The notes beneath the pieces were generated by a model. That model had not been told where the DNA came from, searched no databases, and saw only the letters and a program-made list of their open reading frames with translations. A stretch of 64,000 nt of DNA from Zoogloea sp. 1C4 (GTDB lineage Bacteria > Pseudomonadota > Gammaproteobacteria > Burkholderiales > Rhodocyclaceae), in contig NZ_SSXU01000014.1 of the NCBI RefSeq assembly GCF_009469605.1, forward strand, positions 1 through 64,000, given 5' to 3'. This document shows positions 36,770 to 39,452 of this stretch, piece after piece. The position numbers and the translations under genes were made by a program. The first letter of the stretch is position 1; every line of letters begins with the position of its first letter.

Positions 36770-37549
36770 TCATCCGATGATGTTGTAGCCAGCATCCACG
36801 AAGTGTACGCCGCCCGACATGTTCCGGCCAGCGTCGGAGACGAGGAACGCGGTGAGCGCGCCGATGTCTTCCGGGGTGACGAGGCGGTGCAGCGGCGAAC
36901 GATCCACGGCAGCTGCCATCAGGCCGTCGAAACCGGCGATGCCGGAGGCGGCGCGGGTCATCAGCGGGCCCGGGGAGATCGCGTTGACGCGGATGTTCTT
37001 GGGGCCCAGCTCGAAGGCCATGTAGCGGGTGGCGGCTTCGAGGGCTGCCTTGCACAGGCCCATCACGCCGTAGTTGGCGATGACCTTTTCGCTGCCCAGA
37101 TAGGTCATGGTGATGAGCGAACCGCCGCCGGCCTTCTCGAGGAGCGGCTCGGCCTTGCGGGCCAGGCGCACGAAGGAGTGGGTGGACACGTCCATCGCCA
37201 TCGCGAAGCCGTCCGGCGAGGTGTCGACCACGCGGCCGTGAAGGTCGTCGCGCTTGGCGAAGGCCATGCTGTGGATCGCGAAGTCGAGCTTGCCGTGCTT
37301 GGCGTCGATCTGGGCGAAGACTTCGTCCATGGTCTCGGGCTTGGTCACGTCGAGGAGCAGGACGTCCTCGATGCCCAGGCGGCTGACGATCGGCTCGATG
37401 AACGCGAGGGTCTTCTCGTTCTGGTAGGTGATGATGACCTTGGCGCCCGCTTCGATACACGCTTCGGCAACACCAGTGGAGATGGACTTTTCGTTGGCAA
37501 TACCGGTGATCAGACCCACCTTGCCTTCGAGATTGATGATCGGGTTCAT
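36770..37549 (-). CDS. fabI: Enoyl-[acyl-carrier-protein] reductase (NADH)
   Basis: 259 aa. G-L-I-T-G-I-A-N-E-K-S-I is the FabI NAD-binding start, and the catalytic pair Y-x6-K is visible in N-Y-G-V-M-G-L-C-K-A. L-G-P-K-N-I-R-V-N-A-I-S-P-G-P is a family hallmark. It performs the last reduction in fatty-acid elongation, the target of triclosan. GGAGG lies 5 nt before the ATG; an upstream in-frame start at 37594 is less likely. Confidence 0.95.
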   Translation of the reverse strand: MNPIINLEGKVGLITGIANEKSISTGVAEACIEAGAKVIITYQNEKTLAFIEPIVSRLGIEDVLLLDVTKPETMDEVFAQIDAKHGKLDFAIHSMAFAKRDDLHGRVVDTSPDGFAMAMDVSTHSFVRLARKAEPLLEKAGGGSLITMTYLGSEKVIANYGVMGLCKAALEAATRYMAFELGPKNIRVNAISPGPLMTRAASGIAGFDGLMAAAVDRSPLHRLVTPEDIGALTAFLVSDAGRNMSGGVHFVDAGYNIIG

Positions 37550-37697
37550 AAAAACCTCCATGGGGTTCGATAAAAAATTACTGCACTGCAACAATTGCAG
37601 ACCTTAGAATGGTCTACGAATACTGTTACGTGCAAACTTTTTTGATAACGGCAGGATTCCACCTTTCCTCAACCCAAATGTTGCGACGCATCAAACA

Positions 37698-38198
37698 ATG
37701 ACCGAAAACCTCCACAGCCCGGGCGTGATCCCGGTCTATGTCTTCCTCGATTTCGATGGGGTCACGCATCCCTGGCGCGAGGCGGAGGACTTTCGCTGTC
37801 TGCCGGTGCTCGAAGCCGTGCTGCGCGATTACCCCGAGACCCGGGTGGTGATCGCATCCGACTGGCGCACGCTGTTCTCGCTGCCCAAGCTGCGGGCGCG
37901 CTTCTCGCCGGACATCCAGCCCCGGGTGATCGACACCACGCCGGCGATCTTTCCGCGCAATCCCAACGAGCTCTACGGCCTGCGCGAGCGGGAAGCCCGC
38001 CAGTGGCTGGCAGCCAAGGCGCCCACCGCGTCGTGGTTGGCCATCGACGACGCGCCGGGCAACTGGCCGACCCGCGCACGGCTGGTGCTCACCGATTTCA
38101 AGCAGGGCTTCACCGAAGAGGACGCCGGGCGCATGCGCCGGCTGCTGGACGCCTTCCGCGCCGGCCAATTTGACGCCGAAACGGCAACCCCCGCCTGA
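37698..38198 (+). CDS. HAD-domain protein
   Basis: 166 aa. V-F-L-D-F-D-G-V-T-H-P is HAD motif I (nucleophile Asp and +2 Asp). I-A-S-D-W-R-T resembles motif II, and W-L-A-I-D-D-A-P a motif IV Asp pair. It fits a compact HAD phosphatase-like family of unknown substrate. Divergent from fabI; the 21-bp repeat array begins within about 20 nt of its stop. Confidence 0.8.
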   Translation: MTENLHSPGVIPVYVFLDFDGVTHPWREAEDFRCLPVLEAVLRDYPETRVVIASDWRTLFSLPKLRARFSPDIQPRVIDTTPAIFPRNPNELYGLREREARQWLAAKAPTASWLAIDDAPGNWPTRARLVLTDFKQGFTEEDAGRMRRLLDAFRAGQFDAETATPA

Positions 38199-38216
38199 CG
38201 ACAGCCTTCATCGACC

Positions 38217-38468
38217 CCGGTCTGTCGATAATCGGGCCGGCGAGAAGGATGTCAGGCCGGCGTAGATCGACATCACCGGGTTAACGAAGGACATTCACGC
38301 GCTGTAGATCGAATACAGGCGGTGTACGAACGATGTTCACCGGGTGTAGATCGATTACACCCCGTGAACAAAGGAATCCCATCGGGTGTAGAGCATATTC
38401 ACCCCGTGAACAAAGGATATTCACGGGGTGTAGATCGAATACACCCTGCGTTGATGGAATGCCAGGCA
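38217..38468. repeat. Array of about twelve 21-bp palindromic tandem repeats
   Basis: Twelve units in exact 21-bp register from 38217 to 38468, with no insertions or deletions. Two core types alternate through the centre: GGTGTAGATCGAATACACC (38427, close copies at 38259, 38301, 38343, 38385) and GTGAACAAAGGATATTCAC (38406, copies at 38280, 38322, 38364). Units are near-palindromes whose arms change together, for example CTGTA/TACAG at 38301 and GTGTA/TACAC at 38427, while the core stays. It lies between convergent gene ends and runs into the srkA stop region. No spacers, so not CRISPR. Confidence 0.9.
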
Positions 38469-38471
38469 GGC

Positions 38472-39452
38472 TCAGAACTGTCGCGCGAGGGGCGATTCGT
38501 CCATCAGCGCAACCTGCTCGCGCAGCGAGAGGATCATGTCCTGCCAGTAGCGCGGGGTGTCGAACCAGCTGAAGGCCGCCGGGAAGGCCGGGTCGTCCCA
38601 GCGCCGGGCGATCCAGCCGGCGTAGTGGATGAGGCGCAGGGTGCGCAGGGCCTCGACCAGATGCAGGCTGGCCGGGTCGAAATCGGCGAACTGCTCGTAG
38701 CCTTCGAGCACGTGGTCGAGCTGGCGGGCCATGGCCGGGGCGTCGCCAGAGAGGAGCATCCACAGATCCTGCACCGCCGGGCCGTTGCGGGCGTCGTCGA
38801 AATCCACGAAATGCGGGCCGGCGTCGGTCCACAGCACATTGCCGCCGTGCACGTCGCCATGCAGGCGGATCATCGGTTGCTCACCGGCCCGCTCGAAGCA
38901 GCGGCGCACGCCGTCCAGGGCCTGATCCACCACCGAACGCCAGGTTTCACGCAGCTCGGACGGCAGGAAGGGCGAGGCGAGGAGTTCGTCCCGCGGTTCT
39001 TCGCCGAAGCTGCGGATGGTCAGGTCTGGCCGGTGGGCGAAGGGCTTGTTTGCGCCGATGGCGTGGATGCGGCCGAGGAAGCGGCCCAGCCAGCCGAGCA
39101 CCGCCGGGTCGTCCAGCTCGGGCGCGCGGCCGCCGCGGCGGGGGAACAGCGCCACCCGGAAGCCTTCGTAGTGATGCAGCGTGCTCCCGCCAACCTCCAA
39201 TGCCGGCACGGCGGGGATCTCGGCGTCGGCGAGTTCGGCGAGGAAGGCGTGCTCCTCGAGGATCGCCTCGTCGCTCCAGCGCCCGGGGCGGTAGAACTTG
39301 GCGATCAGCGGCTGGGCGTCCTCGATGCCGACCTGATAGACACGGTTTTCGTAGCTGTTGAGGGTGAGCAGGCGGCCGTCGCAGACGAGGCCGCTGGCCT
39401 CGACCGCCGACAGCACGAAATCGGGCGTCAGCGGTCCGAAGGGGGCCGTCAC
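38472..39452 (-). CDS. srkA: Stress response kinase A (YihE family)
   Basis: 326 aa, the usual length. Catalytic loop L-H-G-D-V-H-G-G-N-V-L and the metal Asp in F-V-D-F-D-D-A match SrkA/APH-type kinases; L-N-S-Y-E-N-R-V-Y-Q-V-G is the N-terminal signature. In E. coli it protects against stress-induced death. It overlaps the terC stop by 4 nt. Confidence 0.92.
   Translation of the reverse strand: MTAPFGPLTPDFVLSAVEASGLVCDGRLLTLNSYENRVYQVGIEDAQPLIAKFYRPGRWSDEAILEEHAFLAELADAEIPAVPALEVGGSTLHHYEGFRVALFPRRGGRAPELDDPAVLGWLGRFLGRIHAIGANKPFAHRPDLTIRSFGEEPRDELLASPFLPSELRETWRSVVDQALDGVRRCFERAGEQPMIRLHGDVHGGNVLWTDAGPHFVDFDDARNGPAVQDLWMLLSGDAPAMARQLDHVLEGYEQFADFDPASLHLVEALRTLRLIHYAGWIARRWDDPAFPAAFSWFDTPRYWQDMILSLREQVALMDESPLARQF

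Follow-up and report, generated by a model that had tools for sequence, protein, structure and literature searches.

Clusters of REPs, above all the GTAG-1 clusters of Thauera sp. MZ1T, are the nearest published kind of repeat to the arrays considered here. REPs of the GTAG and CGTC families are described as short, clustered extragenic palindromes, some of them at gene ends; the families are defined by consensus, and one end of each unit bears an unpaired tag, GTAG or CGTC (PMC3733652). The Thauera GTAG-1 clusters have 5-bp stems, were found via a tandem-repeat database, and would code for 43-82 residues; arrays next to exopolysaccharide genes are described as well (PMC3733652). BIMEs are regularly spaced adjacent palindromes at gene ends that combine REPs of the same sequence in alternating orientation (PMC2817692; PMC3733652), and REPs are reported to be insertion-sequence targets (PMC1525189). 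Template switching at inverted repeats reportedly homogenizes their arms and inverts their spacers (PMC8604942), and it is reported to give rise to hairpins and to preserve them (PMC8794818); the cases described in these two reports are RNA-gene stems and inverted repeats in yeast genes.

The locus described here lies in a window of 64,000 nucleotides (the whole stretch of DNA that was analyzed) from Zoogloea sp. 1C4. Like REP clusters and BIMEs, the Zoogloea arrays are tandem or alternating extragenic palindromes, and in residues' worth they are similar in length to the Thauera clusters, a comparison made with the text description of those clusters rather than with their consensus or pitch (PMC3733652). 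However, the Zoogloea modules abut untagged, and GTAG or CGTC letters, where present, span arm and core. In contrast to families defined by consensus, the ten loci of the window genome include several that are unlike in sequence, and, unlike the REPs of BIMEs, the arrays share pitch and symmetry but not necessarily sequence. Matched arms and inverted spacers recall template-switched inverted repeats, although the published cases cited above are not fixed-pitch tandem arrays. A search of the open-access literature found no report of fixed 21-bp palindrome arrays, and a fixed pitch without a fixed sequence seems to be new.

The array between two convergent genes

The window array occupies positions 38216-38467 and consists of twelve consecutive 21-bp modules in a single register with no indel, as the preliminary description had claimed. 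Each module has a 7-nt arm, a 7-nt core, and a 7-nt arm, and phase 38216 gave the highest palindromy among all 21 phases. Along the array, the modules have 5, 1, 4, 4, 5, 6, 7, 2, 6, 6, 7, and 1 Watson-Crick arm pairs out of seven (mean 4.50); thus nine modules have 4-7 pairs, and three (38237, 38363, and 38447) are worn. The two left-edge modules (38216..38257; 5 and 1 pairs) are doubtful or worn, and the core at 38216 is unlike the remaining cores. They are followed by nine regular modules (38258..38446), including the worn one at 38363, and by a worn right-edge module (38447..38467; 1 of 7 pairs). GATCGA-like cores at 38258, 38300, 38342, 38384, and 38426 alternate with GAAGGA-, GAACGA-, or AAAGGA-like cores at 38237, 38279, 38321, 38363, and 38405. 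The alternation of two core types that had been pointed out is therefore real, and it is the reason that TRF reports a 42-bp unit here (score 177, top among the 20 rows for the window).

Shuffling right arms among the modules lowered pairing to 2.89 pairs per module (p = 0.0004), in agreement with the description of the modules as palindromes with matched arms; because copies of both module types recur along the array, common descent accounts for some of the coupling. Pairing across module junctions was not preferred in the window array (p = 0.99). The modules abut and vary, and spacers are absent, so the array is not CRISPR. Unit similarity visible to TRF, a minisatellite trait, is present in the window array and several others, but the 21-bp pitch recurs in this genome in arrays with other letters, and the array is probably not an ordinary minisatellite. 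On both points the earlier reading is supported.

A HAD-domain gene (PF18143; 37698..38198, plus strand) ends 18 nt before the array, and a phosphotransferase-family gene (PF01636; 38472..39452, minus strand), which we take to be SrkA-like, ends 5 nt from it. This srkA gene is present in 20 of 23 Zoogloea genomes, and only the window genome and genome G014 have an array at the site. Among the 18 srkA loci without an array, the gap is 9-178 bp long in 15 and 908 bp long, with other repeats, in one, and no HAD gene was found adjacent in two; gap lengths were read by eye. Preservation of period 21 at this site in relatives, on which the preliminary description had staked its reading, was thus limited to two of the 20 srkA loci, although period-21 arrays do occur at other loci.

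The convergent srkA/HAD gap in other Zoogloea (L042-L056) carries other palindromes, such as GTCGGACTTCAGTCCGAC in L045 and GGGCGAATTCATTCGCCC-like repeats in L053, as if the gap were attractive to palindromic elements. Comparison of the window array with 72,556 plasmid and 50,697 phage records gave zero matches at E 0.01, and a plasmid or phage origin is not supported.

Arrays of the same pitch in Zoogloea

The window genome has ten array loci, and arrays are also found in nine other Zoogloea genomes. BLAST and covariance models identified two further arrays in the window genome akin to the window array, C57 and C107b; these align with each other over most of their length, which indicates that arrays also get copied. 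Related but altered arrays are present in G008 (three), G004 (two), G010, G011, G022, and G009, and a more distant array is present in G020 and G015. One array (G008 C12) has only about six modules, and the G010 array is truncated by a contig end. Alignment A3 is gap-free and has 32 two-module rows from ten loci, with some rows overlapping and two loci orthologous to two others. All 14 pairs in it changed on both sides, and its covariation score was 0.382 (0.147 when shuffled and 0.097-0.125 when slid), a score that is not a probability because the rows are related. A 63-nt alignment (A1) and a 46-column alignment (A4) were too gappy and were left out.

An exact 24-base pattern matched two contigs in the named genome collection, Zoogloea sp. 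MAG.512 and Splendidivirga corallicola, as pattern matches alone. A 24-base pattern with three mismatches allowed matched 12 of 395 family genomes, 11 of them once and at three mismatches. Model R2 at E≤0.02 matched 30 of the 395 family genomes, seven of which are Zoogloea, and when 29 R2 loci were scored for period 21, array-like loci were found in Zoogloea only. For 399 genomes of the order, the window genome alone passed E≤0.001 among the matches listed; G004 and G008 (score 1e-11) were evidently outside this sample. Because sequence searches cannot detect arrays with different letters, the 13 Zoogloea genomes with no known array do not count as negatives.

A sequence-blind scan for eight successive dyads of seven pairs, at periods 14-42, was applied to 1.30 Mb of the window genome and 0.74 Mb from five other genera, so that blind reading covered about one quarter of the window genome and small samples of the others. 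The unselected set from the window genome comprised 59 stretches (1.18 Mb) whose choice did not depend on a known array in them, some of them from contigs picked because of an array or weak match elsewhere on the contig. At threshold 36, period 21 had seven matches in this set compared to a mean of 0.37 per other period (Poisson 1.4e-7). One of the seven looks coding and is presumably ftsZ; the excess remained without it (2.6e-6). Block-shuffled sequence gave zero matches in the same scan. At threshold 34 another period had 15 matches vs. 10 for period 21, and at 35 another period had six vs. seven; period 21 stood clear from 36 upward. Control genera had no period-21 match in 740 kb (p = 0.048 vs. 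the density in the window genome), and with a wider inner offset one appeared in the controls. The two matches from other Zoogloea were unused because that set contains the window array and its ortholog. The requirement for eight in-register modules makes the detector favor regular arrays.

New arrays from the scan are C107a, C47b, C64, C129a, C129b, and C31; array C9 was in a stretch picked for another reason. Several have no evident sequence in common with the window array, yet they mostly consist of 11-14 modules of 21 bp. Their paired arms include GTTCAA/TTGAAC (C9), CGCAAGC/GCTTGCG (C47b and C129b), ACTTGA/TCAAGT (C129a), and TGAGA/TCTCA (C64). Modules of C107a are mutually unlike yet paired (GCAC/GTGC, GGAG/CTCC, and GCAG/CTGC; p = 0.002). 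Some arrays are kin, since C47b resembles C129b and the cores of C64 are like those of the window family. Four arrays from the scan were absent both from the sequence-model listings and from the TRF list of arrays of at least 100 bp, where C107a, C47b, C129b, and C31 are missing. Coupling between arms exceeded shuffling in four of 15 arrays (window, C107a, G004 C207, and G004 C14), and in C207 junction pairing was significant too (p = 0.0175); it was non-significant in the other 11, whose arms are too alike within the array or loosely paired.

Change, position, and folding of the arrays

Two arrays (21 modules) are shared between the window genome and G014, and 27 of 441 sites differ (arms 17/294, cores 10/147), whereas in the two genes flanking the window array 31 of 286 fourfold sites differ (p = 0.025). 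Arrays may therefore possibly be under mild constraint. None of the 15 pair cells that changed between the two species went from one Watson-Crick pair to another. Read from the window genome to G014, a direction that gives no polarity, seven gained and two lost a Watson-Crick pair, one became G-T, and five were still unpaired; both arms changed in only two cells, neither of them from one Watson-Crick pair to another. The proposal in the preliminary description that selection acts on each unit as a palindrome is not borne out by this comparison, and template switching as reported elsewhere could copy arm changes without selection (PMC8794818; PMC8604942).

Alignment of six pairs of orthologous arrays gave nine internal gaps, and six are whole modules: five of 21 bp (one split 9 + 12 by the aligner) and one of 63 bp. 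The other three gaps measure 1 bp. One falls among the worn left-edge modules of the window array (within 38216..38257, relative to its G014 ortholog), and two, which are opposite in sign and restore the register, are in the G022/G011 pair. The G004/G008 pair has gaps of 13 and 9 before the first clear module and 7 behind the last. Inverted cores, defined as the reverse complement of another core (at most one difference) while unlike it directly, were found in 24 of 987 module pairs and in seven of 14 arrays, but not in the window array. The controls scored 0 (reversed only) and 1 (complemented only), and counted per array the difference is 7 vs. 1 of 14 (p = 0.033). Two G014 orthologs outside this count had five and no inverted cores, with one reversed-only match. 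Inverted duplication of a module would produce the same pattern as a core flip. Arrays in G022 and G009 are identical over the aligned stretch, and 340 bp with the array and an element end (L198/L199) are identical between these genomes, which are listed as separate species. Recent transfer or contamination would explain this identity; G009 is listed with 6% contamination.

That element is in G022 C38 (L198:2253-3650) and has a Mutator/IS256-type transposase gene (PF00872). Its left end starts inside the core of an array module, and the same element end sits in a module of another array, G010 C191 (L200:3930-3991); G009 C176 (L199:75-125) is listed with this observation. No target duplication was made out at the G022 element.

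Arrays are commonly located at gene ends. Twelve of 19 have a stop codon no more than 50 nt away (C47a, C107a, C107b, C47b, C9, C129b, and C31, and in other genomes G008 C12, G008 C57, G004 C207, G020, and G022), and several of these overlap it. C64 is 106 nt from a stop codon, and C57, C129a, G008 C4, G004 C14, G011, and G010 meet contig or stretch ends or weak ORFs. For these distances, neighboring ORFs were chosen by length and GC3, part of them having Pfam matches, and C129b was placed by eye. REP-like palindromes lie within 300 bp of eight of the 19 arrays (C57, C107b, C47b, C64, C129a, G008 C57, G008 C4, and G010) compared to 64 of 1356 background windows, which are probably mostly coding. 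GTAG-tagged or similar REP-like palindromes (GTCGGGTTAGCGCAGCGTAACCCGAC, GTCGGACTTCAGTCCGAC) occupy the same gaps as arrays. In G020 and G015 (L138:1800-2040 and L139:1800-2030), the array is behind a Gcw_chp gene, and a GC-rich hairpin, possibly a terminator, comes after it.

RNA folding of the window array gave z = -6.0 (plus strand) and -7.7 (minus strand). Compared with dinucleotide shuffles (60 each), folding was better on both strands in 14 of 15 arrays (z from -3.3 to -15.2); for the array in G022 there was no clear excess (z -2.4 and -0.5). Local pairs (span ≤20 nt) made up less than half of the predicted pairs in 29 of 30 strands. An RNA role for the units, which had also been suggested, gains no support from mismatches: in four arrays whose sense strand is clear, G-U was not preferred over A-C (24 vs. 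29, p = 0.58). The minus strand of G008 C57, a homogeneous array between convergent genes, has 22 G-U vs. 4 A-C. An Rfam search of 37500-39000 in the window gave a single match, mir-1991, at 21.6 bits where 66 are needed, and none of 11 loci reached the gathering score (the 11 loci do not include C107a, C47b, C9, C64, C129a, C129b, and C31). CsrB-type sponge RNAs are tandem hairpins with GGA in the loop. Part of the Zoogloea arrays resemble them in this, but many cores have no GGA, and CsrA (PF02599), which 3 of 14 control genomes have, was found in none of the 23 genomes of Zoogloea. A CsrA sponge is therefore rejected. Taken together, folding, the parity of G-U and A-C, the absence of CsrA, and the lack of an Rfam family at the loci searched rank upkeep at the DNA level first and a REP-like role at gene 3' ends second.

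Possible explanations

The arrays have mostly 11-14 abutting modules with a 7-nt arm, 6-7-nt core, and 7-nt arm, and usually lie right behind a stop codon. Our leading but still tentative explanation is that the window array belongs to a Zoogloea class of DNA-level palindromic satellites kept by template switching and whole-module slippage. A module that is single-stranded during replication would fold on itself, and the polymerase would switch template within it, so that one arm is copied onto the other and the core can flip. Slippage between modules would gain or lose whole 21-bp units. Together, these processes would hold palindromy and pitch while letters drift, and arrays would come to look unrelated. 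Period-21 arrays that differ in sequence within one genome, inverted cores in seven of 14 arrays, the predominance of whole-module gaps, the copying seen for C57 and C107b, and the lack of a G-U preference count for such satellites. Against template switching are the lack of an inverted core in the window array and of any changed cell that went between Watson-Crick pairs. Arm coupling in few arrays, the three 1-bp gaps, and fewer differences than at fourfold sites also count against the satellite explanation, and the mechanism alone explains neither the common 21 bp in unlike arrays nor the siting behind stops. Tolerance, or a mild benefit at 3' ends, may be the reason for this siting, and template switching the cause of the arrays.

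A REP- or BIME-like 3'-end element, whose transcribed hairpins would block 3'-5' exonucleases and dampen read-through between neighboring genes, is possible but doubtful. Any hairpin would suffice, so letters would drift while selection keeps pairing. The proximity to stop codons and to REP-like palindromes, the folding of both strands in nearly all arrays, the reduced divergence relative to fourfold sites, and the G-U excess in G008 C57 are consistent with it. However, RNA hairpins do not require an exact 21-nt pitch, the clear-sense arrays have no G-U excess, most predicted pairs are not local, and the G022 array folds poorly. The pitch is accommodated by a phased DNA element, an unlikely alternative in which the shape or phase of dyads spaced by exactly two helical turns would be recognized, perhaps as a topological boundary, with selection keeping the spacing. 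Period 21 is outstanding among periods 14-41 at thresholds of at least 36 although letters are unlike, gaps are mainly whole modules, two opposite 1-bp gaps restore register in one array, and sites differ less than fourfold sites; but a single ancestral 21-bp array with slippage could yield the same pitch. Put as a sequence-free DNA element with a ruler, about twelve dyads two helical turns apart at gene 3' ends with a selected pitch, sensed by shape or phase rather than letters as a topological or transcriptional boundary, the idea is somewhat improbable. GTG...CAC half-sites are common in the window family, as would suit an array of operator sites for one sequence-specific DNA-binding protein, but arms and cores are wholly different between arrays and also within C107a, and this is very unlikely. 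Coding repeats of seven residues are scarcely tenable even with one open frame in several arrays: they are contradicted by stops in every frame of the window array, by C107b being open on both strands, and by the freely varying bases of C9, which would be first and second codon positions, and they leave palindromy unexplained.

Repeats are normally recognized by the sequence they have in common. Here the common traits are pitch and symmetry, and sequence tools therefore miss copies. If template switching keeps the arrays, they would be a natural laboratory for the origin of hairpins and for the upkeep of pairing without selection, and a caution that covariation within short tandem palindromes does not prove an RNA function. 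Should the pitch instead be under selection, the arrays would point to a phased DNA element, so far undescribed, at the ends of bacterial genes.
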